NCBI GenBank assembly: GCA_016209015.1
Contig: JACQWY010000040.1
Span: 1 to 64,000, forward strand
Length of the DNA stretch: 64,000 nt
Reading direction: 5' to 3'
From: Gammaproteobacteria bacterium
GTDB taxonomy: Bacteria > Pseudomonadota > Gammaproteobacteria > Ga0077536
Shown: one piece after another, positions 18,058-63,876 of the stretch
Numbering within the stretch: the first letter of the stretch is position 1
Layout: each line of letters starts with the position of its first letter
The notes under the pieces: model-generated
Told to the model about the DNA's origin: nothing
Seen by the model: the letters and a program-made list of their open reading frames with translations, nothing else
Databases searched by the model: none
Made by a program: the position numbers and the translations under genes

Positions 18058-18073
18058 CGGCACGGAACTTGCC
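18058..18073 (+). promoter_or_regulatory. Sigma-54-like -24/-12 element, quinoprotein-caa3 operon
   Basis: CGGCACGGAACTTGCC has GG and GC at the required spacing of ten bases and matches the RpoN consensus except for the first T. It ends 48 bp before the start at 18121. Confidence 0.6.
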
Positions 18074-18120
18074 ATCTCCGCGGTGCCGCGCGGCCGTTCT
18101 GCCGCGCAGACCGGGAGCGC

Positions 18121-19923
18121 ATGATCACGCTCGAGTCATCCCTCATCTGCACGTGCGTTCGCGCGCCGCTTCGCGCGCGTCGCGCCTGGCCGGCCGCGCT
18201 GCTCCTCCTCCATGCCCTCGCCGCCTCGGCCGTCGATGCCGAGTGGCCGATGGCGAGCGGTGATTACGCGAACACGCGCTACAGCACGCTCGCCGACATC
18301 GACACCTCGAATGTCGGCACGCTCGCCGAGGCCTTCGCCTTCGATACCGGTGTCGAGCGCGGCCAGGAAGCCGCACCGATCGTCGTGGGCGGCACGCTCT
18401 ATCTCCTCACCGCCTGGCCGAACGTGCTCTACGCGCTCGATCTGACGCGGCCCGGTGCCGCGGTGAAATGGAAGTTCGAGCCGCATCCCGCGCCGCGGGC
18501 GCAGGGCGAGGCGTGCTGCGACGTCGTGACGCGCGGCATTGCGTATGCCGACGGGACGGTGTTCATGGTCACGCTCGACGGCCAGGCAATCGCCGTCGAC
18601 GCCGCGACGGGCGCCGAACGCTGGCGCACGCCGCTCGCCGACGTCGCCCACGGCGAGACCGTGACCATGGCGCCGCTCGTGGTGAAGGACCGCATGCTCG
18701 TCGGCAACAGCGGCGGCGAGATGGGTGTGCGCGGCTGGCTGACCGCGCTCGACACGCACACCGGCGCCGTCGCCTGGCGCGCCTACAGCACCGGCCCCGA
18801 TCGCGACGTGCTGATCAATCATTCGCGCTACGCGCCGTTCTACCCGACCGACCGCGGCACGGATCTCGGCGTCGCCACCTGGCCGCCCGAAGCCTGGAAG
18901 AGGGGCGGCGGCGGCGCCTGGGGCTTCGTGTCCTACGATCCCGCGCTCGATCTCCTCTACTACGGCACCGCGAATCCCGGCCCCTGGAATCCCGAGCAGC
19001 GCGCAGGCGACAACAAATGGACCTCGGGCGTGTTCGCGCGCCGCCCCGGCGACGGCACGGCGGCCTGGTTCTATCAGTGGAGCCCGCACGATCGCCACGA
19101 TTACGACGGCATCAACGAGATGATGCTGCTCGATCTCGACTGGCAGGGCGCGCGGCGCGAGGTACTCGTCCACCCCGATCGCAACGGCTATGTCTACGTG
19201 CTCGATCGGAAGAACGGTGAAGTCCTCGCCGCCGATCCCTTCGTCACCGTCAACACGAGCACGGGAGTCGATCTGAAGACGGGGCGGCTGCAGTACGACC
19301 CGGGCAAGGATCCGCGCGCGGGGCTCACGATCAGGAACGTCTGTCCTGCCGCGCCCGGCGCGAAGGACTGGCAGCCGTCCGCGTATTCGCCGCGCACGGG
19401 GCTCCTCTATCTGCCGCACCAGCACCTCTGCCACGACGCCCAGACCTACACCACGAGCTACATCGCGGGCACGCCCTTCCTCGGCGTGACGGCGCAGATG
19501 AACGGCATGGCGGGCACGAGCCGCGGCGCGTTCACGGCCTGGGATCCGCTCGCGCGGCGCGCGCGCTGGACGCTGCCCGAGGTGTTCCCGGTGTGGAGCG
19601 GCGCGCTCGCGACCGCGGGCGATCTCGTGTTCTACGGAACGCTGGACGGCTGGTTCAAGGCCGTCGACGCGCGCAGCGGCAAACCGCTCTGGCAGCAGCA
19701 GACGGGCTCGGGGATCATCGGTCAGCCCATGGCGTATCGCGGGCCGGACGGGCGCGAGTACGTCGCGATCATGAGCGGCGTCGGCGGCTGGGCCGGCGCC
19801 GTGTCCTCGGGGTGTCTCGATCGCCGCGACGGCACGGCCGCGCTCGGCTTCGTCGGGGCGATGAAGGATCTCCCGATGCCGGAAGTGAAGACCGGCGTGC
19901 TGCACGTCTATGCGCTGCCCTGA
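18121..19923 (+). CDS. PQQ-dependent dehydrogenase, lanthanide-type active site
   Basis: A 600-residue periplasmic quinoprotein with a signal peptide to about residue 40 and an eight-bladed propeller. It has the adjacent Cys132-Cys133 pair (EACCDVV) that packs on PQQ, Glu200 in SGGEMGVRGW, Asn285 in YGTANPGPWN and catalytic Asp327 in HDYDGINEMML. Asp329, two residues after the catalytic Asp, is the extra ligand found in XoxF/ExaF-type lanthanide enzymes; calcium enzymes have Ala or similar there. It oxidises an alcohol or aldehyde of unknown identity and passes electrons to cytochrome c. It overlaps the next gene by 14 bp and leads the operon that ends in a caa3 oxidase. Confidence 0.88.
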   Translation: MITLESSLICTCVRAPLRARRAWPAALLLLHALAASAVDAEWPMASGDYANTRYSTLADIDTSNVGTLAEAFAFDTGVERGQEAAPIVVGGTLYLLTAWPNVLYALDLTRPGAAVKWKFEPHPAPRAQGEACCDVVTRGIAYADGTVFMVTLDGQAIAVDAATGAERWRTPLADVAHGETVTMAPLVVKDRMLVGNSGGEMGVRGWLTALDTHTGAVAWRAYSTGPDRDVLINHSRYAPFYPTDRGTDLGVATWPPEAWKRGGGGAWGFVSYDPALDLLYYGTANPGPWNPEQRAGDNKWTSGVFARRPGDGTAAWFYQWSPHDRHDYDGINEMMLLDLDWQGARREVLVHPDRNGYVYVLDRKNGEVLAADPFVTVNTSTGVDLKTGRLQYDPGKDPRAGLTIRNVCPAAPGAKDWQPSAYSPRTGLLYLPHQHLCHDAQTYTTSYIAGTPFLGVTAQMNGMAGTSRGAFTAWDPLARRARWTLPEVFPVWSGALATAGDLVFYGTLDGWFKAVDARSGKPLWQQQTGSGIIGQPMAYRGPDGREYVAIMSGVGGWAGAVSSGCLDRRDGTAALGFVGAMKDLPMPEVKTGVLHVYALP

Positions 19924-20398
19924 GCTCGCATGCCTCGCGTTGATCGTCTGTCTCGCGGGCTGCGAGCGCGAGACGCGGCACTTCACCGCCGACGTCCCCG
20001 GCCCGGCCTACCCCGGCCCGCGCGCCCAGACGGGCACTGTCGCCGGACGTGCCGAGAATCCCTACGCGCGCAACGCCTACGCCGTGAACGAGGGCAAGCG
20101 GCTGTTCCGCTGGTACAACTGCAACGGCTGTCACGCCGAGGGCGGCGGCGGGATGGGCGTGCCGCTGATGGATGCGGAGTGGCGTTACGGTGACCGTCCC
20201 GTCGACGTCTTCACGAGCATCCACGACGGCCGCCCCGACGGCATGCCGGCGTTCGGCGGGCGCGTGACGGACGATCAGATCTGGCGGCTCGCCGCCTACG
20301 TGCGCGCGATCGAAGGCCGCGTCGCGAGCGCCACCGCGCCGAACCGCGACGACAGCCTGCAGGAAGCGAAGCCCGAGACGCGGCGCGCCGGGCAGTGA
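19910..20398 (+). CDS. Lipoprotein cytochrome c
   Basis: A 162-residue class I cytochrome c. The N-terminus MRCPELACLALIVCLAGC is a lipoprotein signal with lipobox LAGC, so it is probably tethered to a membrane. One haem site, NCNGCH, is present, and Met in MPAF is a likely sixth ligand. It overlaps both neighbours. Position suggests that it takes electrons from the quinoprotein and delivers them to the oxidase. Confidence 0.85.
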   Translation: MRCPELACLALIVCLAGCERETRHFTADVPGPAYPGPRAQTGTVAGRAENPYARNAYAVNEGKRLFRWYNCNGCHAEGGGGMGVPLMDAEWRYGDRPVDVFTSIHDGRPDGMPAFGGRVTDDQIWRLAAYVRAIEGRVASATAPNRDDSLQEAKPETRRAGQ

Positions 20399-20400
20399 GC

Positions 20401-21411
20401 ATGAGCGGCCTTCCTCTCGCTGCATTCCTCGACACGCCCCCGCTCGGCGAGCTCTCGCAGGACGCGCTGCGCGCGGCCGGCCCGCAGGCCGCGGCGACCC
20501 TCGCGCTGTGGTGGCCGACGCTCGCGCTGTGCAGCGCCGTGCTGCTCGGGATCCTCATCGCGCTCGGCTATGCGCTCGCGACGAGCGGCCGCGCCGTGCG
20601 CAGCGCGCCGGGTGATCTGTCCTCGCTCGCGAATCGCGAGCCGGGCCTCGTGCGCGCCGTGAGCGTCGGCGTCGCGCTCTCGACCGTCGCCCTGCTCGGC
20701 CTCGTCGCGGCGAGTGCCGCGACGGATCGCAAGCTCGCGAGCCTCGACACCGCGGGCGCGCTGCAGGTCCACGTCATCGCGCATCAATGGTGGTGGGAGT
20801 TCGAATACCTCGATGCGGACGTCACGCGCCGCTTCGTCACGGCGAACGAGCTGCACCTGCCGGTCGGCCGCGCCGTCGAGCTCGTGCTCGATGCCGACGA
20901 CGTGATCCACAGCCTGTGGATCCCGAACCTCGCGGGGAAACGCGATCTCATTCCCGGCCATACGCAGACGCTGCGCCTGCGCGCGGATCGTGCCGGCGTC
21001 TATCGCGGCCAGTGCGCGGAGTACTGCGGCTACCAGCACGCGAACATGGCGCTGCGCGTCGTCGCCGAGGAGCCCGGCGCGTTCACGGCCTGGGCGGATC
21101 GCATGCGCGCGCCGGCCGCCGCGCCGGCGACGCCGCTCGCGCAGCAGGGCCGCGCGATCTTCGAGAACGGCACGTGCGCGATGTGCCATACCGTGAGCGG
21201 TACGCCGGCCGCGGCGAAGCACGCGCCGGATCTCACCCACCTGGCCTCGCGCCGGCGGCTCGCCGCCGAGACGCTCGAGAACACGCACGATCTCCTCGCG
21301 CGCTGGATTTCGCGGCCGAACGCGCTGAAGCCCGGCGTCTACATGCCGGACCAGGCATATTCGGAATCGGACGTGCAGGCGCTCACCGCCTACCTGGAGA
21401 CCTTGAAATGA
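20401..21411 (+). CDS. coxB: Cytochrome caa3 oxidase subunit II with fused cytochrome c
   Basis: About 336 residues. Two N-terminal transmembrane helices (LALWWPTLALCSAVLLGILI; VSVGVALSTVALLGLVAA) precede the cupredoxin domain with QWWWEFEY and the CuA ligands His in IHSLWIP and CAEYCGYQHANM. A C-terminal cytochrome c domain with CAMCH and a YMPDQAY methionine ligand makes it caa3-type. The ATG at 20401 is chosen; a GTG at 20395 overlaps the upstream stop. It receives electrons from cytochrome c and feeds CuA, then subunit I. Confidence 0.95.
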   Translation: MSGLPLAAFLDTPPLGELSQDALRAAGPQAAATLALWWPTLALCSAVLLGILIALGYALATSGRAVRSAPGDLSSLANREPGLVRAVSVGVALSTVALLGLVAASAATDRKLASLDTAGALQVHVIAHQWWWEFEYLDADVTRRFVTANELHLPVGRAVELVLDADDVIHSLWIPNLAGKRDLIPGHTQTLRLRADRAGVYRGQCAEYCGYQHANMALRVVAEEPGAFTAWADRMRAPAAAPATPLAQQGRAIFENGTCAMCHTVSGTPAAAKHAPDLTHLASRRRLAAETLENTHDLLARWISRPNALKPGVYMPDQAYSESDVQALTAYLETLK

Positions 21412-21436
21412 ACGGCAGCGTGGAGAACGGGTGCCG

Positions 21437-23332
21437 ATGAGCATCCACGACACCCGCAGCGCCGAGCTCGAGGCCACCTGGCGCGACCCCCCGGGCCTGC
21501 GCGGCGTCCTCTCCGCCGTGAATCACAAGACGATCGGCCGGCGCTTCATCGTCACCGCCTTCAGCTTCTTCGTCGCGGCCGGCATCCTCGCCGGCCTCAT
21601 GCGGCTGCAGCTCATGCACCCGGGCAATACGGTTCTCGGTCCCGATCGCTACGCGCAGATCTTCACCATGCACGGCACGACGATGATGTTCCTGTTCGCC
21701 GTGCCGGTGATGCAGGCCGTCGCGGTCTACGTCGTGCCGCTCATGATCGGCGCGCGCAGCATCGCCTTCCCGCGGCTCAACGCCTACGCGTTCTGGATCT
21801 ACCTCTTCGGCGGCGTGATGCTCTACGGCGCGTTCCTGCTGAACGTCGGACCTGACGCGGGCTGGTTCGCCTACGTGCCGTTGTCCGGTCCCGCCTATTC
21901 GCCCGGCAAGCGCGTCGACTTCTGGGCGCAGATGATCACGTTCACGGAGCTCTCGGGCCTGCTCGAGGCCGTCATCCAGATCACGACCATCTTCAAGCTT
22001 CGCGCGCCCGGCATGACGCTGAACCGGCTGCCGCTCTACGTGTGGTCCGTGCTGGTGACGAACTTCATGATCCTCTTCGCGATGCCGGCGGTGATGCTGT
22101 CGAGCACGGCGCTGATCATGGACCGCCTCGTCGGCACGCATTTCTACAACCCGGCCGAAGGCGGCGACGTGCTGCTGTGGCAGCACCTCTTCTGGTTCTT
22201 CGGGCATCCGGAGGTGTATTTCATCTTCGTGCCGGCACTCGGCTTCATGTCGACGATCATCGCGACGTTCTCCCGGCGGCAGATCTTCGGCTACACCGCG
22301 ATGGTCGTCGCATTGATCGCGACCGCGTTCCTCGCGTTCGGGCTGTGGGTCCACCACATGTTCGCGACGAACCTGCCGGAGCTCGGCAAGAGCTTCTTCA
22401 CCGCCGTCAGCATGATGATCGCCATTCCCTCGGCCGTGCAGATCTTCTGCTGGCTCGCGACGCTGAAGACCGGCCGGCTCGTCATGGAGGTTCCGCTCCA
22501 CTTCGTCCTTGCGTTCTTCTTCATCCTCGTCGTCGGCGGGCTGACGGGCGTGATGCTCGCCGCCGTGCCGCTCGACCTGCAGGTGCACGACACCTACTTC
22601 GTCGTCGCGCATTTCCACTACGTCCTCATCGGCGGCGCGGTGTTCCCGCTCGTCGGCGCGTTCTACTACTGGTTCCCGAAAGTCACGGGCCGCATGCTCT
22701 CCGGCGTGCTCGGGCGCTGGCATTTCTGGCTCTTCTTCGCCGGCTTCAACCTCACGTTCTTTCCGATGCACGTGCTCGGGTTGCTCGGCATGCCGCGACG
22801 CGTCTACACCTATCCCGCGGATCCCGGCTGGGGTGCGCTGAATCTCCTCTCCACCGTCGGCGACTGGATCACCGGCGTGAGCTTCCTGCTGTTCGCCCTG
22901 AACGTGTGGCGCGCGCTCGCCCGCGGCATGCCGGCCGGTGCGAACCCCTGGGGCGCGCCCACGCTCGAATGGGCGACGAGCTCGCCGCCGCACGCCGCGA
23001 ATTTCCCGCGCGTGCCGCTCGTCCGGGGCGTGGCGCCGCTGTGGCTCGCCGAACCGTACGCCGGCCACGTGCGCGGCCTCGCGGACACGCAGCGCGAGGT
23101 GCTCGCGACGACCGTGCTCGATGCGGCGCCCGATCACCGCATGATCATGCCGACGCCGACGATCTGGCCGTTCCTGAGTGCGGTCGCGACGACGATGCTG
23201 TTCATCGGCTCGATCTTCACGCCCTGGGCCGTCGTGTGGGGCACGGTGCCGGTCGCCGTCGCGCTCGTCGCCTGGTTCTGGCCGACGCGCGCGGAAACGG
23301 CAGAACATCTCGCGCTCGAGAAGCGGCCGTGA
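21437..23332 (+). CDS. coxA: Cytochrome c oxidase subunit I
   Basis: About 631 residues with twelve or more hydrophobic helices. Visible ligands are His in TMHGTTMMF (low-spin haem), WQHLFWFFGHPEVY with the CuB His, the proton-channel Glu and the cross-linked Tyr, LWVHHMF (two CuB His) and VVAHFHYVLIGG (both haem His). The GHPEVY glutamate places it in the A1-like group of haem-copper oxidases. ATG 21437 is preceded by GGAG. Its stop overlaps the subunit III start as GTGA. Confidence 0.97.
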   Translation: MSIHDTRSAELEATWRDPPGLRGVLSAVNHKTIGRRFIVTAFSFFVAAGILAGLMRLQLMHPGNTVLGPDRYAQIFTMHGTTMMFLFAVPVMQAVAVYVVPLMIGARSIAFPRLNAYAFWIYLFGGVMLYGAFLLNVGPDAGWFAYVPLSGPAYSPGKRVDFWAQMITFTELSGLLEAVIQITTIFKLRAPGMTLNRLPLYVWSVLVTNFMILFAMPAVMLSSTALIMDRLVGTHFYNPAEGGDVLLWQHLFWFFGHPEVYFIFVPALGFMSTIIATFSRRQIFGYTAMVVALIATAFLAFGLWVHHMFATNLPELGKSFFTAVSMMIAIPSAVQIFCWLATLKTGRLVMEVPLHFVLAFFFILVVGGLTGVMLAAVPLDLQVHDTYFVVAHFHYVLIGGAVFPLVGAFYYWFPKVTGRMLSGVLGRWHFWLFFAGFNLTFFPMHVLGLLGMPRRVYTYPADPGWGALNLLSTVGDWITGVSFLLFALNVWRALARGMPAGANPWGAPTLEWATSSPPHAANFPRVPLVRGVAPLWLAEPYAGHVRGLADTQREVLATTVLDAAPDHRMIMPTPTIWPFLSAVATTMLFIGSIFTPWAVVWGTVPVAVALVAWFWPTRAETAEHLALEKRP

Positions 23333-24000: not shown

Positions 24001-24320
24001 TCTGGCCGGCGCTCCTGCTCGCGCCCTCGATAGCGCTCTGCGACGTGCTCGCGAGCCATGCGCTGACCGGCCAGGACTGTACGATCGCGACCTCGCGCAT
24101 ACTCTACGCCGTGCAGTTGCCGAGCCTCGCGCTCGTCGTCGTCTGCACGCTGCTCGCCGCCGCGCACCGGCGCGCGCACGCGCCCGGCACGGCGATCGAT
24201 GCCACCGTCATGCAGCCGTGCTTCCTCGCCGGCGTCGCGTCGTGGACCGGGCTGCTCTCCGTTCTCGTCGTCGTCGCGATCGGGATCCCGCTGTGGTTCG
24301 TGCCGCCCTGTGCGGGCTGA
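23997..24320 (+). CDS. Small membrane protein of the oxidase operon
   Basis: A 107-residue protein whose ATG overlaps the subunit III stop as ATGA. It has three hydrophobic segments (MIWPALLLAPSIALCDVLAS; ILYAVQLPSLALVVVCTLLA; WTGLLSVLVVVAIGIPLWFV). The family is not recognised. Its place between subunit III and CtaG suggests an accessory or fourth subunit. Confidence 0.65.
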   Translation: MIWPALLLAPSIALCDVLASHALTGQDCTIATSRILYAVQLPSLALVVVCTLLAAAHRRAHAPGTAIDATVMQPCFLAGVASWTGLLSVLVVVAIGIPLWFVPPCAG

Positions 24321-26974: not shown

Positions 26975-26990
26975 TGGCTTGGAACTTGCT
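26975..26990 (+). promoter_or_regulatory. Sigma-54-like -24/-12 element, CHRD gene
   Basis: TGGCTTGGAACTTGCT has exact TGGC-N7-TTGC spacing, 71 bp before the start at 27061. The rest of the 26702-27060 gap shows no gene. Confidence 0.6.
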
Positions 26991-29481: not shown

Positions 29482-29497
29482 AGCAATCTCCATGCCC
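29482..29497 (-). promoter_or_regulatory. Sigma-54-like -24/-12 element, hemerythrin gene
   Basis: On the minus strand GGGCATGGAGATTGCT gives GGGC-N7-TTGC, one base from consensus, 43 bp before the start. Confidence 0.5.
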
Positions 29498-29517
29498 GCG
29501 TGCGGCGTTGGGGAAAA

Positions 29518-29668: not shown

Positions 29669-29720
29669 CCGAACCGCGGGGCACGATTCACGGGCAGGCA
29701 GAGGTGGCCTTCTGTATACG

Positions 29721-30053: not shown

Positions 30054-30069
30054 TGGCACGCGGGTTGCT
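30054..30069 (+). promoter_or_regulatory. Sigma-54-like -24/-12 element, topoisomerase IB gene
   Basis: TGGCACGCGGGTTGCT is a near-perfect match to the RpoN consensus, ending 35 bp before the ATG at 30104. Confidence 0.75.
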
Positions 30070-36238: not shown

Positions 36239-36254
36239 CGCAAGCGATATGCCA
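36239..36254 (-). promoter_or_regulatory. Sigma-54-like -24/-12 element, EF-hand/paoABC operon
   Basis: On the minus strand TGGCATATCGCTTGCG is exact TGGC-N7-TTGC, 36 bp before the start at 36203. Confidence 0.7.
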
Positions 36255-45557: not shown

Positions 45558-45573
45558 TGCAAGCGATGTGCCA
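45558..45573 (-). promoter_or_regulatory. Sigma-54-like -24/-12 element, zinc-ribbon/ku unit
   Basis: TGGCACATCGCTTGCA on the minus strand is a full consensus match, 33 bp before the start at 45526. It is divergent from the element at 45605. Confidence 0.78.
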
Positions 45574-45604: not shown

Positions 45605-45620
45605 TGGCATGCCGCTTGCT
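45605..45620 (+). promoter_or_regulatory. Sigma-54-like -24/-12 element, BON/DUF1003 unit
   Basis: TGGCATGCCGCTTGCT matches TGGC-N7-TTGC exactly, 70 bp before the start at 45689, back to back with the element at 45558. Confidence 0.75.
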
Positions 45621-48030: not shown

Positions 48031-49785
48031 TCATCGCTCTCCCGCCGGTGCGGCGAGCGCTCGCACCGCGTCCAAGAGCGCGAGCGGTTCCACGGGCTTC
48101 GCGAGATGGGCCTGGAAGCCGGCGGCGAGCGCGCGCGCGCGGTCGTCCGGCCCGGCATAGGCAGTGAGTGCGACGGCCGGCAACGCCCCGCCCTCCGCCG
48201 CGGGCAGCGCACGCAGGCGGCGCACGAGCGTATAGCCGTCCTCGCCCGGCATCTCGATGTCGGCGATGAGCACGTGCGGCAGCGCGCGCGGCACGAGCGC
48301 GTAGGCCTCGGACGCGGACGACGCGACGTGCGCCGCCGCGCCCCATTTTTCGAGCAGCGCCGCGACCGCCTCGCGGCCGTCGGCTTCATCGTCCACGACG
48401 AGCACGCGCACGCCGCTCAGCGCGGATTCGGGCTTCTCTCGAGCGTCCTGCGTCGTCGCGGGCTGCAGTGCGGCGGGCCACTCGACGGCGGCGCGCGGCA
48501 GACGCACCACGAAGCGCGCGCCGGGACGGTCGCTGCGGTTCGCGGCGTCGACCCGGCCGCCATGCATTTCGACGAGATGGCGGACGATCGCGAGGCCGAG
48601 GCCGAGGCCTTGATGCGGCCGCGTGCTCGAGGAATCCCCCTGCCGGAAGCGCTCGAAGATGTAGGGCAGGAACTCCGGCGCGATGCCGGGCCCGTCGTCG
48701 AGCACGGTGAGCTCGACGGCCGTCTCGTCGCCGCCGAGCGCGACCCAGACGTTGCCGCCCTGTTGCGCGAATTTCACGCCGTTCGAGACGAGATTCCACA
48801 CCACCTGCTGCAGGCGCTGCGCGTCGCCGGTGAGCGTGACCGGCGCGGTGCCGAGCGCGGCGTGCAGCGCGACGTCCTTCGCCGCCGCGGTCGGGCGCAG
48901 CGTGTCGATCGCCGCCTCGACGACGGTGTTGAGATCCAGCGGCGCGAGCTCGAGCCTGAGCCTGCCGGTGATGATCCGGGACACGTCCAGGATCTCGCCG
49001 ACGAGCCGGCCCTGCAGACGCGCGTTGCGCTCGATCGTCTCGACCGCTTTCGCGCGCGTCGCGGCATCGACGCCGGGCACTTTCAGGATTTCGATCCAGC
49101 CGCTGATCGCGTGCAGCGGCGTGCGCAGCTCGTGGGAGATCGTCGCCAGGAACTCGTCCTTCAGGCGGTTCGCGGCCTCGGCCTCGCGCCGCGCGTCCTC
49201 GGCGCGCACGAGCAGCTTCTCGATCTGCGCCGTGCGCGCCTCGACGCGCTGCTCGAGCTCGCGATTGAGATTCTCGAGCGCGTGGTTCTTCCGGAACAGC
49301 TCCGCGAACACCGCGACCTTCGCGCGCAGGATTTCCGGGATGATCGGCACGGAGACGTAATCGACCGCGCCGGAGTCATAGCCCTTGAGTCGCGCGTCGT
49401 CCTCCACCGTCACGCCCGAGACGAGGATGAGGGAGGTCTTCGAGAGGCGCGGGTGCTCGCGGATCATGCTCGTCAGCTCGAAGCCGTCGATCTCCGGCAT
49501 GCAGACGTCGATCAGCACGACCGCGACCTCGATCTTCAGCAGGATCTGCAGCGCCTCGAGACCGGACGCGGCGCGGACGAGACGCTCGCCGAGGCCCGCG
49601 AGGATAGACTCGTAGCTCAGGAGCTTCGCCGGCTGGTCGTCGACGAGCAGGATGTTCACGGGGGTCTTGTCGGGCACGGCGTCCTCCGGCATCACCTCCG
49701 GCGCAGCCTCGCCGCCGGCCGCCCCGGAATGCGGATCGGGGGCGGCGCCGCCGGCCCGGCCGTTCGCGGCGGGCAGCGCGCTCAC
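48031..49785 (-). CDS. REC-HK-REC hybrid kinase
   Basis: A 584-residue protein starting at GTG 49785, which overlaps the stop of the HAMP-array kinase (GTGA). It has a receiver ([20 protein letters not shown], Asp in [14 protein letters not shown]), a coiled coil, HisKA with [20 protein letters not shown], HATPase ([28 protein letters not shown]) and a second receiver ([12 protein letters not shown], Asp in [14 protein letters not shown]). It probably takes phosphate from, or passes it to, the upstream giant kinase. Confidence 0.9.
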
Positions 49786-52700
49786 CGGTGCAGCCAGATG
49801 CGCAGCGCCGAGAGGAGCTGCTCGGTGTTCACGGGTTTCGCGAGATAGTCCGAGGCGCCGGCCTCGAGGCATTTCTCGCGATCGCCCTTCATGGCCTTCG
49901 CCGTGAGCGCGATGATCGGCAGGCGCTGGTGGCGCGCATTGCGGCGTATGGCCTGCATCGTCTCGTAGCCGTCCATTTCGGGCATCATGATGTCCATCAG
50001 CACGATCGCCGTGTCCGGGCGCTCTTCGAGCGTCGCTATCGCCTCGTGTCCGGTGTTCGCCGCGAGCACCTGCATGCCGCGCCGCTCGAGCACGCTCGAC
50101 AGCGCGAAGATGTTGCGCACGTCGTCGTCGACGACGAGCACGGGCTTGCCGATGAGGTCCTCGTCCGAGCGGTGCAGGCGATCGAGCATCTGCTGCTTCT
50201 CGGGCGGCAGATCGCCGACGACGCGGTGCAGGAACAGCGCGGTCTCGTCGAGCAGGCGCTCCGGCGACTCCACGCCCTTCACGACGACGCTGCGCGCCAT
50301 GCTGTGCAGACGCGCGTCCTCTTCCGGCGTCAGCTCCTTGCCCGTGAACACCACGACCGGCAGATCGCGCAGCTCCGCGTCGGCGCTGATCTCCTCCAGC
50401 ACCTCGAAGCCCGAACGGTCCGGCAGGCGCAGATCGAGCACCATGCAGTCGTGCGGCACCTCGCGCAGGCGCGCGAGCGCTTCCGCGCCGCTCGCCGCGG
50501 CGGAGATCTCGACGTCGTCGTGGCCGAGCAGCTCGCGGATGCCGAGCTGCTCGGCGGTGTTGTCCTCGGCGACGAGCAGGCGCTTGCGGCGCGGCCGCGC
50601 GTAATCCTTGATTCGCAGCAGCGCGGCGCGCAGGCCCTCGGGTGTCGTCGGCTTCGTGACGAACGCGAACGCGCCGCGCGCGAGGCCGTGCTGGCGGTCC
50701 TCCTCGAGCGTCACCATCTGCACGGGGATGTGACGCGTCGCCGGGTCGTGCTTCAACTGGCTCAGCACCGTCCAGCCCAGCATGTCGGGCAGGAAGACGT
50801 CGAGCGAGACCGCGGTCGGCCGGTATTCGCGGGCCAGCGCGAGCGCCTCGGCGCCGCGGGTCGCGACGAGTACCTTGAAGCCGTTGTCGCGCGCGAGATC
50901 GACGATCGCGCGGCAGTAGTGCGGATCGTCCTCGACGACGAGCAGCACGGCGTCGTCGGGCTCGAGCTCCTCGCGGTCGTCGGGGATGTGGACCTCGGCC
51001 GTGCGCTCCGGCAGCCGCACGACGACCTGGCGCGCGATCTGCGGCCGCTCGCCGGCCGCGGACCGCGCCTCGGGGCCGGCCTCGAGCGACAGCGAGGGCC
51101 CCGCGTATTTCGTCGGCAGATAGAGCGTGAACGTGCTGCCGACCGCGGGCTGGCTCGAGAGCTGCAGCTCGCCGCCGAGCAGGAACGCGAGCTCGCGGCT
51201 GATCGCGAGCCCGAGGCCCGTGCCGCCGTACTTGCGGCTCGTGCTCGCGTCCGCCTGCTGGAAGGCCTCGAAGACGATGCGCTGCTTGTCCGCCGGTATG
51301 CCGATGCCGGTGTCGGAGACCGCGAACGCGACGATGCCGTCCGCGTGCTTCAACACCGGATGCTCGACGTTCCAGCCGCTCGTCCCGGCGAGCACCTGCA
51401 GACGCACACCGCCGTGGGCCGTGAACTTGAACGCGTTCGAGAGCAGATTCTTCAACACCTGCATGAGGCGCTTCGAATCCGTGGTGATGCCGCGGCCGAC
51501 GTTCGGATCGACCTCGATCGTGAAGCTGAGCCCCCGCGCCTCGGCGACGTGGCGGAACGCGCGCTCGACGGCGTCGAGCAGCTTCACGAACGGCAGCTCC
51601 TCCGCCTCGACCGTCACCGTGCCCGACTCGATCTTCGAGAGGTCGAGGATGTCGGTGATGAGGTTCAGCAGGTCCGTGCCGGCGCCGTGGATCGTCTTCG
51701 CGAACTCGATCTGCTTGTCGCTGAGGTTGCCCTCGACGTTCTCCGAGAGCTGCTGGCCGAGGATCAGGATGCTGTTCAGCGGCGTGCGCAGCTCGTGCGA
51801 CATGTTCGCGAGAAACTCCGACTTGTATTTCGAGGTCAGCGCGAGCTCGTCCGCCTTCTCCTCGAGCGCGCGGCGCGCCTGCTCGATCTGCTGGTTCTTG
51901 CGCTCGACTTCGGCGTTCTGCTCGGCGAGCTGCTGCGCCTTCTGCGCGAGCTGCTCGTTCTTCTCCTGCAACTCCTTCTGCTGGGTCGTGAGCTCCTGCG
52001 CGAGCTGCTGGGACTGCGCGAGCAGCGCCTCGGTGCGCATCGTCGCCTCGATGCTGTTCAGCACGATGCCGACGCTCGCCGTGAGCTGCTCGAGGAACAT
52101 GAGATGCTGGCCGGTGAACGTGTTGACGGTCGCGAGCTCGACGACCGCCTTCACCGTGCCCTCGAACAGCACGGGCAGCACGACGATGTCGCGCGGCGCG
52201 GCCTGGAAGAGACCGGAGAAGATCGGCGGCCCGGCCGCCGGCGGATCGGAGATGAGGATCCGGCTCCGGTCCGCGGCGCACTGGCCGATCAGCCCCTGAC
52301 CGGGCGCGAGCTCGCGCGGCACGAGCTCGATCTCGTGGCTGCCCGCGTACATCGCGAGCAGGAACAGCCGGAAACCGTCCGCCGTCGCGCTCATGTGGTA
52401 GATCACGGCGTGCTGGGCGTTGACGAGCGGCGCGAGCTCGGAGAGCAGGATGCGCCCGACGGTCTCGAGATCGCGCTGGCCCTGCAGCATGCCGGTGACG
52501 CGTGCGAGATTGCTCTTCAGCCAGTCCTGCTCGCTGTTGCGCTCCGTCGTCAGGCGCAGGTTCGTGATCATGGTGTTGATGTTGTCCTTGAGCTCGGCGA
52601 CCTCGCCGCGCGCGTCGACCTGGATGGCGCGCGTCAGATCGCCCTTCGTCACCGCGGTCGCGACCTCGGCGATCGCGCGCACCTGGTTCGTGAGGTTGTC

Positions 52701-55700
52701 GGCGAGCAGGTTCACGTTGCCGGTGAGGTCCTTCCAGGTGCCGGCCGCGCCCGGCACGTTCGCCTGGCCGCCGAGCCGGCCCTCGACGCCGACTTCGCGC
52801 GCGACGCTCGTCACCTGGTCCGCGAACGTCGCGAGCGTGTCCGTCATGTTGTTGATCGTCTCGGCGAGCGCCGCGACCTCGCCTTTCGCGCGCACGGTGA
52901 GGTTCTGCTTCAGATCGCCGTCCGCGACCGCGGTCACGACCTTCACGATGCCGCGCACCTGCTCGGTCAGGTTCGCGGCCATCACGTTCACGTTGTCCGT
53001 GAGATCCTTCCAGATGCCGGCGACGCCGGGCACGTCGGCCTGGCCCCCGAGCTTGCCCTCGGTGCCGACCTCGCGCGCGACCCGCGTCACTTCGGCCGCG
53101 AACGCGTTCAACTGGTCGACCATGATGTTGAGCGTGTTCTTGAGCTCGAGCATCTCGCCCTTCACGTCGACAGTGATCTTCCGCGAGAGATCGCCGCGCG
53201 CGACCGCGGTCGTCACCGCCGCGATGTTGCGGACCTGGCCCGTGAGGTTGTTCGCCATGGAGTTCACGGAATCGGTGAGGTCCTTCCACGTGCCCGCGAC
53301 GCCCGGCACGTTCGCCTGCCCGCCGAGGCGCCCTTCCGTGCCGACCTCGCGCGCGACGCGCGTCACTTCCGCGGCGAAGGAGCGGAGCTGCTCGACCATC
53401 GTGTTCAGCGTCTCCTTCAGGAGCAGGATCTCGCCCCGCACGTCGACGGTGATCTTCTTCGAGAGATCCCCGTTCGCGATCGCGGTCGCGACCTCCGCGA
53501 TGTTGCGGACCTGGGCGGTGAGGTTCGAGGCCATGAAGTTGACCGAGTCCGTGAGGTCCTTCCACGTGCCCGCCACGCCGTGCACCGCGGCCTGGCCGCC
53601 GAGCTTGCCCTCGGTGCCGACTTCGCGCGCGACGCGCGTCACTTCCGCGGCGAACGCGTTCAACTGATCGACCATCGTGTTGATGGTCTCCTTCAATTGC
53701 AGAATCTCGCCCTTCACGTCGACGGTGATCTTGCGCGAGAGATCGCCGCGCGCGACGGCAGTCGTCACCTCCGCGATGTTGCGCACCTGCGCCGTGAGCG
53801 AGCTCGCCATGGTGTTCACGGAGTCCGTCAGGTCCTTCCACGTGCCCGCCATGCCCGGCACATTCGCCTGGCCCCCGAGACGGCCCTCGGTGCCGACCTC
53901 GCGCGCCACCCGCGTGACTTCGCCCGCGAACGCGTTCAACTGGTCGACCACGGTGTTCAGCGTTTCCTTGAGCAAGAGGATCTCGCCGCGCACGTCGACG
54001 GTGATCTTCTTCGAGAGGTCCCCGCCGGCGATCGCGGTCGCGACCTCGGCAATGTTGCGGACCTGGGCCGTGAGGTTGTTCGCCATGGAGTTCACCGAGT
54101 CCGTGAGATCCTTCCACGTGCCCGCCACGCCCGGCACCGCGGCCTGGCCGCCGAGACGCCCTTCCGTACCGACCTCGCGCGCGACGCGTGTCACCTCGCC
54201 CGCGAACGCGTTCAACTGGTCGACCATCGTATTCAGCGTTTCCTTCAGCAGCAGGATCTCGCCGCGCACGTCGACGGTGATCTTGCGCGAGAGATCGCCG
54301 CGCGCGACCGCGGTCGCGACTTCGGCGATGTTGCGCACCTGTCCCGTCAGATTGCCGGCCATGGAGTTCACGGAGTCCGTGAGATCCTTCCACGTGCCCG
54401 CGACGCCGTGCACCTGCGCCTGCCCGCCGAGCTTGCCCTCGGTGCCGACCTCGCGCGCGACGCGCGTCACCTCGCCCGCGAACGCGTTCAACTGGTCGAC
54501 CATCGTGTTGATGGTCTCCTTCAGGCGCAGGATCTCGCCGCTGACGTCGACGGTGATCTTGCGCGAGAGATCGCCGTTCGCGATCGCGGTCGCGACGTCC
54601 GCGATGTTGCGGACCTGCGCCGTGAGGTTGTTCGCCATGGAGTTCACGGAGTCGGTCAGGTCCTTCCAGGTGCCCGCGACCCCCGGCACGACCGCCTGGC
54701 CGCCGAGACGCCCCTCGGTGCCGACCTCGCGCGCGACGCGTGTCACTTCGGAGGCGAAAGAGCGGAGCTGGTCGACCATCGTGTTGATGGCCTCTTTCAA
54801 TTGCAGGATCTCACCGCGCACGTCCGCGGTGATCTTCTTGGAGAGATCCCCGCTCGCGACCGCAATCGTCACTTCCGCGATGTTGCGGACCTGCGCCGTG
54901 AGATTGCTGGCCATGAGGTTCACGTTGTCCGTGAGATCCTTCCACACGCCGCTCACTTCCCGCACCTGCGCCTGGCCGCCGAGCTTGCCGTCCGTGCCGA
55001 CTTCGCGTGCGACGCGCGTCACTTCCGCGGCGAACGCGTTCAACTGATCGACCATCGTGTTGATGGTCTCCTTCAACTGCAGGATTTCGCCGCGCACGTC
55101 GACGGTGATCTTGCGCGAGAGATCGCCGCGCGCGACGGCGGTCGTCACGTCCGCGATGTTCCGCACCTGGTCCGTGAGATTCCCGCACATCGCGTTCACG
55201 GAGTCGGTGAGATCCTTCCACGTGCCCGCAACCCCCGGCACGACGGCCTGACCGCCGAGACGCCCTTCCGTGCCGACCTCGCGCGCGACGCGCGTCACTT
55301 CGGAGGCGAAGGAGCGGAGCTGGTCGACCATCGTGTTGATGGCCTCCTTCAACTGCAGGATCTCGCCGCGTACGTCCACCGTGATCTTCTTCGAGAGATC
55401 GCCGTTCGCGACGGCGATGGTCACCTCCGCGATGTTGCGCACCTGCGCCGTGAGATTGCTCGCCATGAGGTTCACGTTCTCGGTGAGGTCCTTCCACACG
55501 CCGCTGACTTCGGGCACCTGCGCCTGGCCGCCGAGCTTGCCGTCCGTGCCGACTTCGCGCGCGACGCGCGTCACCTCGGACGTGAAGACTTCGAGCTGCT
55601 GGATCATCGTGTTCACGATCGTCGCGGAGCGCAGGAACTCGCCCTGCAGGCGCCGGCCCTCGACTTCGAGCGGCACCGTGCGCATGAGATCGCCGTCCGC

Positions 55701-56081
55701 GACCGCGGCGATCGCGCGCGTCACTTCCGTCGTCGGCCACAGCAGATCGTCGACGAGCGCGTTGTACGCGTTCTGCATCTCGCCCCAGGCGCCCGTGACG
55801 CGATGCAGTCGCGCGCGCTTGCTGGTACGGCCTTCACGTCCGACGGCGTGGCCGACGCGCGAGAGCTCGTCCGCGAGGCGCGCGTTCGCGGCGACGATCT
55901 CGTTGAACGTGTCCGCGATCTTGCCGGTGACGCCGGTGAGATCGCCGGGCATGCGCACGGAGAAATCACCGTCGCGCACGGCCTGCAGCGCGGCGAGCAG
56001 TTGTCGCGATTCGATCGACACGTCGTCCGCGCGGCGACCGTACTGCGGCAGGGCTTCGCGGTCTTCGGCGGGCGCGCTCAT
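49782..56081 (-). CDS. Giant HAMP-array hybrid histidine kinase (HAMPs-GAF-HK-REC3)
   Basis: A 2099-residue cytoplasmic kinase. After a short N-terminus there are about twelve tandem HAMP-like units of 92 residues, eleven with a GGQA block ([20 protein letters not shown]) and a first, diverged one. They span residues of about 40-1170. A GAF domain follows ([20 protein letters not shown]), then a Gln/Glu coiled coil, HisKA with [20 protein letters not shown], HATPase ([32 protein letters not shown]) and three receivers whose Asp lie in [23 protein letters not shown] and [12 protein letters not shown]. The layout resembles fungal group III (Nik1-type) osmosensing kinases. There is no membrane helix. 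Confidence 0.93.
52560..55960 (-). repeat. Tandem 276-bp coding repeats (HAMP units)
   Basis: Phrases such as CGACGCGCGTCAC and GAGTCCGTGAGATCCTTCCA recur every 276 bp. Central units are nearly identical in DNA, alternating between GKLGGQA and GRLGGQA types, which points to recent expansion or gene conversion. The outermost units are diverged. Confidence 0.9.
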
Positions 56082-56890: not shown

Positions 56891-56906
56891 TGGCATGCAA
56901 CATGCT
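56891..56906 (+). promoter_or_regulatory. Sigma-54-like -24/-12 element, PRC-barrel gene
   Basis: TGGCATGCAACATGCT has the GG/GC pair at the right spacing but ATGC for TTGC. It lies 123 bp before the start at 57029, the longest leader of the set. Confidence 0.45.
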
Positions 56907-59174: not shown

Positions 59175-59396
59175 TCAATGCGCACGCGGTCGGCGCGCGC
59201 CGTAGCCGGATTCGAAATCCGCAATCTGCTTCTCCGCGACGTCGCGCGTCACGCCGTAGACCTCCTGGATCCGGCCCGCGAGCTGATCGCGCTTGCCGGC
59301 GATGACGTCGAGCTCGTCGTCCGTGAGCTTGCCCCACTGCTCCTTCACCTTGCCCTTGGCCTGTTTCCAATTGCCCTCGATCTTGTCCCAGTTCAT
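59175..59396 (-). CDS. csbD: CsbD-family stress protein
   Basis: A 73-residue protein: MNWDKIEGNWKQAKGKVKEQ, then WGKLTDDELDVIAGKRDQLA and GRIQEVYGV, the full CsbD pattern. CsbD proteins are abundant under general stress, but their function is unknown. It heads a run of four genes (58601 and 58363 follow) behind the -24/-12 element at 59441. Confidence 0.93.
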   Translation of the reverse strand: MNWDKIEGNWKQAKGKVKEQWGKLTDDELDVIAGKRDQLAGRIQEVYGVTRDVAEKQIADFESGYGARRPRAH

Positions 59397-59440: not shown

Positions 59441-59456
59441 TGCAAGCGGGATGCCA
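59441..59456 (-). promoter_or_regulatory. Sigma-54-like -24/-12 element, csbD unit
   Basis: TGGCATCCCGCTTGCA on the minus strand is a consensus match, 46 bp before the start. Confidence 0.75.
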
Positions 59457-60255: not shown

Positions 60256-60582
60256 TCAGCGTTTCGGCTTGCCGGTGATCTCGTCGGCGTCGATGTAGCC
60301 GTCGTGATCCGTGTCGACGTCCTTGAACGTCTTCACGACCTCGGCCTGGTGCTTCGTCGCCGGCAGGCCCTTGCCGGGCTCGTCCTGCGTCGCGCCTTGC
60401 GGATGCTCGGTCAGCGCGCGGTATTCGTCTTTGTCGAGACGACCGTCGTTGTTCTTGTCCGCGCCGTGGAATACGTCGGGACTCTGCGCGCTGGTCTGCT
60501 GCGCGTGCAGCGCCGGCACGCCGGCCGCGAATACGACCGCGAGCGCGGCGGCAAAGAGCGTGGGATGTCGATGTATGTTCAT
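60256..60582 (-). CDS. Exported EF-hand protein
   Basis: A 108-residue protein: signal peptide (LFAAALAVVFAAGVPALHAQ) and two calcium loops, DKNNDGRLDKDEY and DTDHDGYIDADEI. It probably binds Ca in the periplasm. It starts the unit running to the glycine-zipper gene. Confidence 0.85.
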   Translation of the reverse strand: MNIHRHPTLFAAALAVVFAAGVPALHAQQTSAQSPDVFHGADKNNDGRLDKDEYRALTEHPQGATQDEPGKGLPATKHQAEVVKTFKDVDTDHDGYIDADEITGKPKR

Positions 60583-60618: not shown

Positions 60619-60634
60619 AGCAGGTTCCATGCCA
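60619..60634 (-). promoter_or_regulatory. Sigma-54-like -24/-12 element, EF-hand unit
   Basis: TGGCATGGAACCTGCT on the minus strand has the GG/GC spacing with CTGC for TTGC, 38 bp before the start. Confidence 0.55.
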
Positions 60635-60651: not shown

Positions 60652-61221
60652 TCAGGCCTGGGGCACCGCCGAGAGCTGCTCGGTCCACGTCGCGAGCGTC
60701 TGCAGGAGCTGCTTCAGGAGCTCGCGCGTCTTCTCGTCGTGGAGCTGGCCTGTCGCGTCGATGCGCGCGCCGGCATTGCCGACGAGGATCTCCGGCCTGT
60801 TCAGCGGGTGCATGTCGAGCGTGACGAAGATCTGCCGCAGATGGGCCTGCGCGCGTGCCGTGCCGAACGCGCCGCTCGACGCGCCGATCACGGCCACGGG
60901 CTTGCCGGTCCACGCGCTCTCGCCGAACGGCCGCGAGCACCAGTCGATCGCGTTCTTCAACACGCCGGGCACGGAGTAGTTGTACTCGGGGGTCGCGATC
61001 AGAATCGCGTCCGCCGTGCGGATGCGCTTCTTCATCTCCTCGACCGCCGCCGGCAGCGGGGACTCCTGGTCCTGGTTGTAGAGCGGGATCGCGTCGAGCT
61101 CGCAGATTTCGATCTGCATGCGATCGGGGGCGAGCGTGTGCGCCGCGCGGAGCAGCGCGCGATTATAGGAATCGCGACGCAGACTGCCCGCGATACCGAG
61201 GACGCTGAGCGTGCGCTGCAT
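60652..61221 (-). CDS. NADPH-dependent FMN reductase
   Basis: A 189-residue flavodoxin-fold reductase. GIAGSLRRDSYNRALLRAA binds FMN phosphate, TPEYNYSVPGVLKNAIDWCS the isoalloxazine, and ASSGAFGTARAQAHLRQ is typical of the ChrR/SSU-type quinone or azo reductases. It probably reduces quinones or metals under oxidative stress. It follows the BON lipoprotein by 9 bp. Confidence 0.88.
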   Translation of the reverse strand: MQRTLSVLGIAGSLRRDSYNRALLRAAHTLAPDRMQIEICELDAIPLYNQDQESPLPAAVEEMKKRIRTADAILIATPEYNYSVPGVLKNAIDWCSRPFGESAWTGKPVAVIGASSGAFGTARAQAHLRQIFVTLDMHPLNRPEILVGNAGARIDATGQLHDEKTRELLKQLLQTLATWTEQLSAVPQA

Positions 61222-61230
61222 GGTCCGGCC

Positions 61231-61677
61231 TCAGCGGCTGACCATGAGGTTCAGACGATTGTCGACGTTGACGACGCCGTCCACTTCGGCGGCGAGGGCC
61301 GCGGCGTGTTGCGAGGCGGCGACGGAGTCCACGGTGCCGGCGAGGCTCACGACGCCGTCGTGCGTCTGCACCTTGATCGGCTGACGTGCGAGTGTCGGGT
61401 CGGAGTTGATCGCCGCGCTCACGTTCGCGGTGATCGCGGCATCCCTCACGCTCGCAGGGCCCATGGCCGGCATTTCGTCGTCGTTCGCGAGGGCGACCTT
61501 CTCGCCGCCGTTCGCGGCCGGCTCCGGTGCCGCGGCGTTCTGCGGCGCAGTCGCCGCGGGCGGCGCTTCGTCGCGGCTGCCCATCTGCTTGTTCTCCTGA
61601 TTGTCCTTGCGCTGGCAGCCCGCCATGGCGAGGGCGGCGCACAGGCTCACGATCAGCATGGTGTGTTTCATCGGCAT
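61231..61677 (-). CDS. BON-domain lipoprotein
   Basis: About 148 residues. A lipoprotein signal (LIVSLCAALAMAGC) precedes a Pro/Ala/Asn linker and one BON domain (ITANVSAAINSDPTLARQPI; VQTHDGVVSLAGTVDS). BON domains bind phospholipid in OsmY/DolP-like envelope proteins. AGGAGG precedes two possible ATGs (61677 and 61671). Confidence 0.83.
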   Translation of the reverse strand: MPMKHTMLIVSLCAALAMAGCQRKDNQENKQMGSRDEAPPAATAPQNAAAPEPAANGGEKVALANDDEMPAMGPASVRDAAITANVSAAINSDPTLARQPIKVQTHDGVVSLAGTVDSVAASQHAAALAAEVDGVVNVDNRLNLMVSR

Positions 61678-61719: not shown

Positions 61720-61735
61720 TGCAAGGCATATGCCA
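61720..61735 (-). promoter_or_regulatory. Sigma-54-like -24/-12 element, BON/FMN reductase unit
   Basis: TGGCATATGCCTTGCA on the minus strand is an exact TGGC-N7-TTGC, 44 bp before the start. Confidence 0.75.
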
Positions 61736-61835: not shown

Positions 61836-61851
61836 GGGCACGCTCGTTGCA
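61836..61851 (+). promoter_or_regulatory. Sigma-54-like -24/-12 element, DUF3182 unit
   Basis: GGGCACGCTCGTTGCA differs from consensus only in the first base, 37 bp before the start at 61887. It is divergent from 61720. Confidence 0.6.
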
Positions 61852-61886
61852 CGGGCGCCCGCAGACACCCCGGATGGAGGAGTGCG

Positions 61887-63059
61887 ATGTTTTCCGAGCC
61901 TGCGCCATCGCGATCGGCAACGCCCGCCGCGCCCCGGCGCGGCGCGGTCGTGACCTACGTCGGCGATACAGAGCGCAGGCCCGACGAGCACGAGCGCGTG
62001 ACGCTCGAGCATCTCGGCCGGCGCGTCGCGGCGCTGCTCGCCTACGACTATCTCGGCCCGTACGCCGCCGCCTCGCCACGCGATCGCCCGCTCTTCTTCG
62101 TGCCGCGCGACACACTCACGAGCGACGAGGCGCGTGCGCTCGGCGTGCGCGGCCGCGAGGATCTGCTCGGCGGCATCGTGCCGCATCGCGTCGCCGCCTC
62201 GAAGCTCGTGATGCGCCCGCTCGTCGCCGAGGACGCGCGCACGCCGCCCGGCTGGCGCCACGTGTTCACGCCGCGCATGGCACGCGTTGCGCTGCCCGGC
62301 CACAGCACGTTCTGCCACGACGATGCATGGCGCGCCGGCCGCGCGCTGCTGCCGCTCGGTCGCGTACGGTTGAAGCCCGGCGACGGCGTCGGCGGTCACG
62401 GTCAATGCGTCGTGGACGACGAACCCGCCCTCGCGGCCGCGCTCGCCGGCTACACGCCGGACGACGTCGCGAGGCACGGGCTCGTCGTCGAGATGGATCT
62501 CGCCGACGCCGTCACGTACAGCATCGGACAGATCCGCCTCGGCGGGCGCTGCGCGAGCTATTGCGGCCGCCAGCGCACGACGCGCGATCACGCGGCGCGC
62601 GAGGCCTACGGCGGTTCCGAGCTCTGCGTGGTGCGCGGCGGCTACGCGGAGCTGCTCGCGCTCGCCCTGCCCATGCCGGCGCGGCTCGCGGTCATGCAGG
62701 TGCGCGAGTTCGACGCCGCGCTGCATGCCGTCCTGCCCGGACTCGAGGTCTCGCGCGACAACTACGACGTCATCCAGGGCACGGACGCCGCGGGCCGGCC
62801 GCGCTCCGGCGTGCTCGAACAATCCTGGCGCGTCGGTGGCGCGAGTCCCGCGGAGCTCGCGGCGCTCGAGGCCTTCGACGCGGCTCCGCACGCGCGCGTC
62901 GTCCGCGCCGCGACCGTCGAACGCTACGGCGCGGACGCGCCGCCCCCGGGCGCCACCGTGCATTACCGCGGCCACGACCCGCGCGTCGGCCCGCTCGTCA
63001 AATTCACGACCGTCGAATGCGATGAACACGCGTCTCGAATCCTTCACGATCCCCGTTGA
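61887..63059 (+). CDS. DUF3182 family protein
   Basis: A 390-residue soluble protein with GGAGG upstream of the ATG. Blocks such as TYVGDTERRPDEHERVTLEH, VRLKPGDGVGGHGQCVVDD and GLVVEMDLADAVTYSIGQI match DUF3182. The layout suggests an ATP-grasp-like fold (lysine after a Gly-rich loop, then acidic metal ligands), so ligase-type activity is possible. The end overlaps the hydrolase gene by 38 bp. Confidence 0.8.
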   Translation: MFSEPAPSRSATPAAPRRGAVVTYVGDTERRPDEHERVTLEHLGRRVAALLAYDYLGPYAAASPRDRPLFFVPRDTLTSDEARALGVRGREDLLGGIVPHRVAASKLVMRPLVAEDARTPPGWRHVFTPRMARVALPGHSTFCHDDAWRAGRALLPLGRVRLKPGDGVGGHGQCVVDDEPALAAALAGYTPDDVARHGLVVEMDLADAVTYSIGQIRLGGRCASYCGRQRTTRDHAAREAYGGSELCVVRGGYAELLALALPMPARLAVMQVREFDAALHAVLPGLEVSRDNYDVIQGTDAAGRPRSGVLEQSWRVGGASPAELAALEAFDAAPHARVVRAATVERYGADAPPPGATVHYRGHDPRVGPLVKFTTVECDEHASRILHDPR

Positions 63060-63819
63060 CGACGAGCGGATCTCCGGCACGCTGCTGATCCCGGCGACGG
63101 CGTTTCCCGGCGTGCTGTTCGTGCACGGCTGGGGCGGCAGCCAGGAACAGGATCTCGCGCGCGCGCGCGACGTCGCCGCGCTCGGCTGCGCGAGTCTGAC
63201 CTTCGATCTGCGCGGTCACGATCGGACCGCGGAGCGCTTCCAGTCCGTGAACCGCGATCAGAATCTCCGCGATCTGATCGCCGCCTACGACTGGTTCGTG
63301 AGCCAGCGCAGCGTCGAGCCGAGCGCGATCGCCGTCGTCGGCATCAGCTACGGCGGCTATCTCGCCTCGCTGCTGACGGCGCTGCGCCCCGTGCGCTGGC
63401 TCGCGCTGCGGGCACCGGCGATCTACAAGGACACGGACTGGACGCGGCCGAAGCTCGCGCTGCACGCCGATCCCGAGCTGCCCGCGTATCGCCAGCGCGC
63501 GATCCCCTGGAACGAGAACAAGGCGCTCACCGCCTGCGCGGCATTCCGCGGCGACGTGCTCGCCGTCGAATCGGAATGCGACGACGTGATCCCGCACCAG
63601 GTCGTCGAGAACTACGTCGCGGCATGCCGCAATGCGCGCTCGATCACCTCGCGCGTCATCGCGCACGCGGATCACAGCCTGAGCGACAAGCGCTGGCAGC
63701 ACGCCTACACGCAGATCCTCGTCGCCTGGCTCACCGAGATGGTATTCGGCGCGCGCAGCGACGGTGCGAGCGCGCAAGTCGACACCCGCCGCCCGCAGGG
63801 CTACGCCGCGGGGCGGTAA
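63022..63819 (+). CDS. Alpha/beta hydrolase
   Basis: A 265-residue hydrolase. VLFVHGWGGSQ is the oxyanion region, GISYGGYLASL holds the nucleophile Ser, ESECDDVIPHQV the Asp and AHADHSLSD the His. It starts within the DUF3182 gene, so the two are translationally linked and probably act together. The substrate is unknown. Confidence 0.87.
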   Translation: MNTRLESFTIPVDDERISGTLLIPATAFPGVLFVHGWGGSQEQDLARARDVAALGCASLTFDLRGHDRTAERFQSVNRDQNLRDLIAAYDWFVSQRSVEPSAIAVVGISYGGYLASLLTALRPVRWLALRAPAIYKDTDWTRPKLALHADPELPAYRQRAIPWNENKALTACAAFRGDVLAVESECDDVIPHQVVENYVAACRNARSITSRVIAHADHSLSDKRWQHAYTQILVAWLTEMVFGARSDGASAQVDTRRPQGYAAGR

Positions 63820-63860
63820 AGCTTGCACGTCGCGGGCAATCGCTACACGGCCCGCGATTC

Positions 63861-63876
63861 TGGCACGCGCGCTGCA
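63861..63876 (+). promoter_or_regulatory. Sigma-54-like -24/-12 element, last gene
   Basis: TGGCACGCGCGCTGCA matches consensus except C for T at -13, 80 bp before the start at 63955. Confidence 0.55.

Follow-up and report, generated by a model that had tools for sequence, protein, structure and literature searches.

Why should a single stretch of a gammaproteobacterial genome carry thirteen sequences that resemble the -24/-12 promoter element of sigma-54 (RpoN), most of them in front of genes for stress resistance and the cell envelope? The stretch, called the window here, comprises positions 1 to 64,000 of contig JACQWY010000040.1 (assembly GCA_016209015.1, lineage Ga0077536). Dps, CsbD, OsmY-like BON proteins and Ku are normally controlled by RpoS, EcfG or SigB. 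We consider it probable that the elements are sigma-54 promoters and that most of them belong to one stress and envelope regulon, which is switched on by a dedicated enhancer-binding protein. The promoter elements, an encoded RpoN, a common upstream dyad, the conservation of promoter and dyad in relatives, and the linkage of both to an activator gene can all be read from the sequence itself.

An earlier note on this DNA, made from its letters alone, had listed thirteen matches to TGGC-N7-TTGC. All were recovered at the same positions and in the same orientations with no or one mismatch, except that minus-strand starts differ by one base; seven are exact. The leader lengths are as described there, and no strong promoter-placed site lies before the kinases or the left-hand island, which the note had said lack the element. 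Its argument that the matches outnumber chance holds for sites placed before genes and fails for the bare motif, which is not in excess in the window (71 matches with up to one mismatch, compared to 59.7 +/- 7.6 in shuffles). The sigma-54 signal therefore rests on placement before genes rather than on motif counts. We called genes with a codon-usage model and counted a site as placed if it was intergenic and a called start on its own strand followed 15-135 bp downstream. By this definition the window holds 13 placed sites (12 of those listed and one at 16819 on the minus strand), whereas 300 letter-permuted patterns gave a mean of 1.9 and a maximum of 12, so that none reached 13. The window thus shows an enrichment before gene starts, for which the earlier note had proposed a genome-wide test. 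A literature-style weight matrix found 11 promoter-placed window sites scoring at least 12 bits, compared to 0-1 for nine control matrices that were reversed or column-permuted.

The rest of the genome was searched by pattern. About 0.85 Mb was also sampled; since half of this sample was selected near known sites, genome-wide densities are taken from the pattern counts only. In this sample outside the window, half of which was picked around exact matches, the same weight matrix gave 35 promoter-placed sites versus 1-4 in controls. Bases that the earlier note had not used also match the RpoN consensus when the elements are aligned: the base after TGGC is A in 12 of the 13, the next is C or T in every one, and all 13 have the near-invariant GG and GC. 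In the 5.7-Mb genome there are 40 copies of the extended pattern TGGCAY-N5-TTGC, compared to 8 of its reverse, and six of the 40 fall in the 64-kb window (Poisson P ~8e-6). RpoN is encoded by a single gene in the genome (PF04552, 236.5 bits, C37:48674-49147). An Rfam search of the window gave no match.

The motifs could in principle be chance occurrences or serve another factor, such as RpoS or an extracytoplasmic function (ECF) sigma factor with a GGAACTT -35 element. The lack of excess for the bare pattern fits this idea, as does GGAACTT within the 18058 and 26975 sites; however, GGAACTT is absent from most sites, and these two have no ECF-type -10 element at the usual spacing. Placed sites are about sevenfold more numerous than the permuted mean, the reversed pattern is fivefold rarer genome-wide, the flanking bases are RpoN-like, and promoters are kept between genera (see below). 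We consider this explanation very improbable and rejected both chance and ECF control on placement, pattern reversal, flanks and cross-genus conservation. The sites resemble sigma-54 promoters in sequence and position, and the genome-wide statistics agree.

We then compared the 260 bp upstream of the sites in the window and in two segments of other contigs, C42:114149-134148 (L061) and C39:132000-151999 (L060). The word TTACACG occurs in 10 of 28 site upstream regions, compared to 14 of 730 gene upstream regions (nominal P ~1e-10, with divergent promoters counted twice). This word is half of a 19-bp dyad with the core GYAR-N3-YTRC, which often comes in two copies ~20 bp, or two helical turns, apart. 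The dyad mostly lies 50-80 bp upstream of the -24 element; measured from the first base of that element, its centres usually fall close to -80 and -60, and the better copies span -20 to -83 in all. Eight window sites, forming seven promoter regions, carry it: 18058, 30054, 36239, 56891, 59441, 61720, 61836 and 63861. A matrix was trained on C42 and C39 alone to avoid circularity. When scored on the window, it placed 8 of 14 scored sites at 0.3-1.2% of the intergenic background; in the reverse cross-validation, a window-trained matrix placed 6 of 14 sites on C42 and C39 at or below 1.2%. This test is conservative, because the background contains the real sites. A common dyad at a consistent upstream place is therefore found at 8 of the 13 sites, far beyond chance. 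Flagellar, exopolysaccharide and nif-type promoters of the same genomes also score as sigma-54 sites and mostly lack the dyad, which makes the dyad specific to the stress and envelope set.

The regulon had been described as regional. It is not, because the same arrangement of enhancer and promoter recurs on at least two other contigs, C42 and C39, in dyad-bearing clusters with Dps, BON, DUF1328 and PQQ/caa3 genes. A promoter and dyad 46-76 bp apart occur 14 times (12-13 places) in this genome (G000) and not at all in the reversed control. Counts in 57 relatives are mostly 0-3, like the controls, and are highest in G031 and G014 (5 versus 2 each). The relative G028 has two orthologues of the C42 activator described below, and each of its four dyad promoters is located no more than 14 kb away from them. 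G033, which belongs to a different genus, keeps the layout at orthologous promoters of the BON lipoprotein/DUF3182 pair (L152), the C39:137160 gene (L154) and a BON gene (L150:5922). In pairwise alignments the dyads were the most evidently conserved non-coding stretch, above the -24/-12 elements, which the aligner sometimes left out of register.

The earlier note had suggested looking for an enhancer-binding protein gene nearby, but the window contains no activator gene and the candidate is found on C42 (C42:128041-129135). It encodes 365 amino acids with an AAA+ sigma-54 activator domain (PF00158, 220 bits), an HTH_8 domain (51.5 bits) and a GSFTGA loop, and it has no sensory domain. The protein passes no NCBIfam equivalog cut-off, scoring 276.7 bits for PspF (TIGR02974, cut-off 443.55), 227.1 for ZraR (cut-off 760) and 299.4 for NorR (cut-off 476). 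A response regulator gene adjoins it; with 199.3 bits against a cut-off of 280 for NF007018 (UvrY/SirA/GacA), its product is by model score related to this family and not the equivalog. The same gene run encodes a receiver-only protein and a CHASE3-HisKA_3 kinase, and the module is interleaved with Dps, DUF1328, BON, AI-2E and small helical envelope-type genes behind sigma-54 sites. The genes for activator, regulator and kinase stay linked in G000, G028, G033 and the metagenome-assembled contig L174. Among 369 genomes of the class, a search returned one further activator relative (56% identical), which suggests a rare module. Upstream of the activator gene in G000 there is a dyad of 13.7 bits at -133, and no -24/-12 site was found before this gene.

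Granting that the promoters and dyad are real, the dyad might instead be bound by the UvrY/GacA-like regulator through its LuxR-type helix-turn-helix (HTH), while the activator works elsewhere on the DNA or from solution. GacA boxes have TGTAAG...CTTACA half-sites with 18-bp spacing, and NorR sites have a GT-N7-AC core. The regulator gene adjoins the activator in all four sequences named above and is the best conserved part of the module (65-77% between G000 and relatives); among NCBIfam models its product comes closest to UvrY/SirA/GacA, and GacA boxes are built from related half-sites. Yet the 11-bp dyad core is better suited to a Fis-type HTH, with GT-N7-AC as in NorR and unlike the 18-bp GacA spacing, and paired copies 50-80 bp upstream of the -24 element are typical for enhancer-binding proteins. 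Moreover, the second activator copy of G028 (L147) has a dyad promoter nearby and no called regulator gene in the surrounding 20 kb. We regard binding by the regulator as unlikely. Other palindromes stand before the activator gene: TGTAAG-N7-CTTACG in G000, and CCTAC-N5-GTAG-like sequences (CCTACAGCCCGTAGG; CCTACGGTTTGTAG) at L061:14987-15290 and L146:9300-9628. These palindromes are possible response-regulator sites.

Several observations weigh against one regulon under the C42 activator. Five of the 13 sites have no dyad at threshold: 26975, 29482, 45558, 45605 and 60619, which precede the PEP-CTERM gene, hemerythrin, Ku, the BON gene divergent from Ku and one EF-hand gene. Strong sigma-54 activator domains number ~19 in this genome, and only linkage and co-occurrence connect the dyad with the C42 activator. 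Exact promoter-plus-dyad counts in relatives are small (4 in G028 and 3 in G033, versus 1 in each control), and some activator-adjacent promoters of G033 lack the dyad.

The dyad-less sites and the many activators would also fit a mosaic, in which real sigma-54 promoters answer to several unrelated activators (the C42 protein, PrsR and others) and the stress set is not one regulon. PrsR is encoded in this genome (C51:108249, 702.9 bits versus a cut-off of 502.6), the 26975 target carries a PEP-CTERM tail (PF07589 at residues 165-188), and RpoN-dependent expression of PEP-CTERM genes is documented in another system (PMC9850573). Site 26975 may therefore belong to the PrsR system, but no clear element is shared by its upstream region and candidate PrsR promoters. 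A search for an enhancer common to the dyad-less or PEP-CTERM promoters yielded nothing except -12-like words from divergent promoters. Promoters without the dyad may respond to the C42 protein through enhancers that are weaker or lie further away, or they may answer to different activators. Because eight sites share a dyad far beyond chance, whereas the dyad-less group has no alternative common element, we consider a mosaic decidedly unlikely. The sequence data support a single regulon for the eight dyad-bearing sites but do not support it for all thirteen, as the earlier note had it.

The features of the window are collected in Table 1. Pfam agrees with the gene annotations of the earlier note, and a stress and envelope set stands behind the elements.

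Table 1. Putative sigma-54 elements, dyads and a large kinase gene in the window. Dyad centres are given from the first base of the -24 element.
Feature	Positions	Strand	Context
Tandem dyads, 20.1 + 12.4 bits	17969..18006		Centres -80, -61 from 18058
-24/-12 CGGCACGGAACTTGC	18058..18072	+	Before PQQ dehydrogenase / cytochrome c / caa3 oxidase operon 18121-25141
-24/-12 TGGCTTGGAACTTGC	26975..26989	+	Before CHRD/PEP-CTERM protein 27061-27630; no dyad; possible PrsR target
-24/-12 GGGCATGGAGATTGC	29483..29497	-	Before hemerythrin 28832-29440; no dyad
Dyads, 17.3 + 9.3 bits	29963..30001		Centres -82, -62 from 30054
-24/-12 TGGCACGCGGGTTGC	30054..30068	+	Before topoisomerase IB 30104-31144
-24/-12 TGGCATATCGCTTGC	36240..36254	-	Before EF-hand protein and aldehyde-oxidase-type subunits 36203-31743
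Dyad, 14.4 bits	36306..36324		Centre -61 from 36240(-); half-site at -82
-24/-12 TGGCACATCGCTTGC	45559..45573	-	Before small Cys-rich protein 45290-45526, then Ku 44354-45229; no dyad
-24/-12 TGGCATGCCGCTTGC	45605..45619	+	Before BON protein 45689-46867, DUF1003 46912-47505; no dyad at threshold
2099-aa kinase	49782..56081	-	No sigma-54 site
Dyad, 19.0 bits	56811..56829		Centre -71 from 56891
-24/-12 TGGCATGCAACATGC	56891..56905	+	Before PRC-barrel protein 57029-57463
-24/-12 TGGCATCCCGCTTGC	59442..59456	-	Before CsbD 59175-59396 and three genes downstream
Tandem dyads, 12.4 + 13.4 bits	59507..59547		Centres -60, -82 from 59442(-)
-24/-12 TGGCATGGAACCTGC	60620..60634	-	Before EF-hand protein 60256-60582; weak in-phase dyad core at -73 only
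-24/-12 TGGCATATGCCTTGC	61721..61735	-	Before BON lipoprotein 61231-61677, FMN reductase 60652-61221
Dyad, 20.4 bits	61774..61792		Common to divergent promoters 61721(-) and 61836(+); kept in relative G033
-24/-12 GGGCACGCTCGTTGC	61836..61850	+	Before DUF3182 61950-63059, alpha/beta hydrolase 63022-63819
Tandem dyads, 12.4 + 13.8 bits	63812..63850		Centres -40, -20 from 63861
-24/-12 TGGCACGCGCGCTGC	63861..63875	+	Before BON-domain gene from 63955, continuing beyond window end

Upstream of 29482 and 18058, the window also contains inverted repeats at 29500-29750 and 17780-17920 (GGGGACACGACACTTGATTTCGG / AAATCAAGTGTCGTGTCCCC and GGGGTCAGGTTCGATTTCGC / GCGAAATCGAACCTGACCCC), which resemble mobile-element or repetitive extragenic palindromic (REP)-type repeats. 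Elsewhere in the genome, the intergenic sequence CCCATGGCACGCGCAGTGAACC recurs at L060:16734, 17009 and 17287 (~275 bp spacing in L060), L069:16712 and L077:9153; it mimics a -24 element and looks like a repeat family rather than a promoter. Another intergenic repeat family, built from CGTCCGATTACGC / GGTCCGATTA units, lies beside BON and DUF1328 genes at C8:64270-64450 (L235) and in L061 upstream of 9119. On C39, L060:7072-13621 holds a second PQQ dehydrogenase and caa3 set, similar in content to window 18121-25141 and located behind divergent sigma-54 sites with tandem dyads. Genes that are NifV-, NifS- and NifB-like by eye stand behind sigma-54 sites near sigma-54 activators at L065:9793 (C13) and L067:12189 and 17747 (C57), and the organism may fix nitrogen.

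The protein that binds the dyad, its mode of control and the conditions under which it acts are inferred from these data. The C42 activator would bind the dyad, contact sigma-54 polymerase by looping and open the promoter. As it has no sensory domain of its own, it probably depends for its activity on the CHASE3/HisKA_3 kinase and UvrY-like regulator encoded nearby, most simply via transcription of the activator gene. A 64%-identical homologue of the 2099-aa kinase (L174:3260-9004) lies directly beside the activator-regulator-kinase module in L174, where hemerythrin-like and BON-like genes also adjoin. This suggests that the window kinases feed the regulon, with the 2099-aa kinase as a possible upstream component. 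The presumed outputs, Dps, CsbD, BON, PRC-barrel, topoisomerase IB, alternative caa3 oxidases and aldehyde oxidase, would point to the survival of stressed or non-growing cells.

A replacement of RpoS by sigma-54 was rejected as a reading, because RpoS is encoded (C50:99781, 463.5 bits versus a cut-off of 378.7). The sigma-54 regulon would therefore be a second programme. Tentatively, and with rather less than even confidence, we propose a sigma-54 general stress response beside RpoS, in which the amount of a sensor-less activator is governed by a kinase (perhaps including the 2099-aa protein) and the UvrY-like regulator. Through paired dyads, this activator would turn on genes for DNA protection, the envelope and alternative respiration, from a dozen or more promoters spread over several clusters. 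If this is true, the response would be tightly off until the ATP-driven activator is made, and an activator module together with its enhancers could carry the programme from one genome to another. Dyad and activator make the regulon directly testable, and the dyad together with the -24/-12 element provides a search key for other genomes. In the open literature searched, we found no broad general-stress gene set behind one sigma-54 activator.

PspF, ZraR and NorR are sigma-54 activators for single stresses. They resemble the system proposed here in combining such an activator with upstream dyads for a stress response; PspF likewise has no sensory domain, and the GT-N7-AC core of NorR sites resembles the dyad core. 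However, the cut-offs of these families are not reached here, and instead of one operon the activator appears to control numerous genes for general stress and respiration, distributed over several clusters. The GacA-HrpR/HrpS-HrpL cascade of Pseudomonas syringae is similar in outline, pairing a GacA/UvrY-type regulator with sensor-less sigma-54 activators, but it has other targets; in the present genome the regulator adjoins the activator, and the control step is one that we propose. The RpoS general stress regulon has overlapping outputs (Dps, OsmY-like BON, CsbD-like proteins and Ku) and differs in promoter type and activator requirement. The PrsK/PrsR system shares RpoN promoters before PEP-CTERM genes, and 26975 may be one of its members, whereas the other targets here are non-PEP-CTERM genes with a dyad that 26975 lacks (PMC9850573). 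Finally, sigma-54 has been named the central controller of the bacterial exterior, on the basis of envelope-centred regulons that were likewise predicted by promoter scans (Francke 2011, PMC3162934). CsbD is absent from that text, and the DNA-protection genes and alternative oxidases found here exceed the exterior theme.

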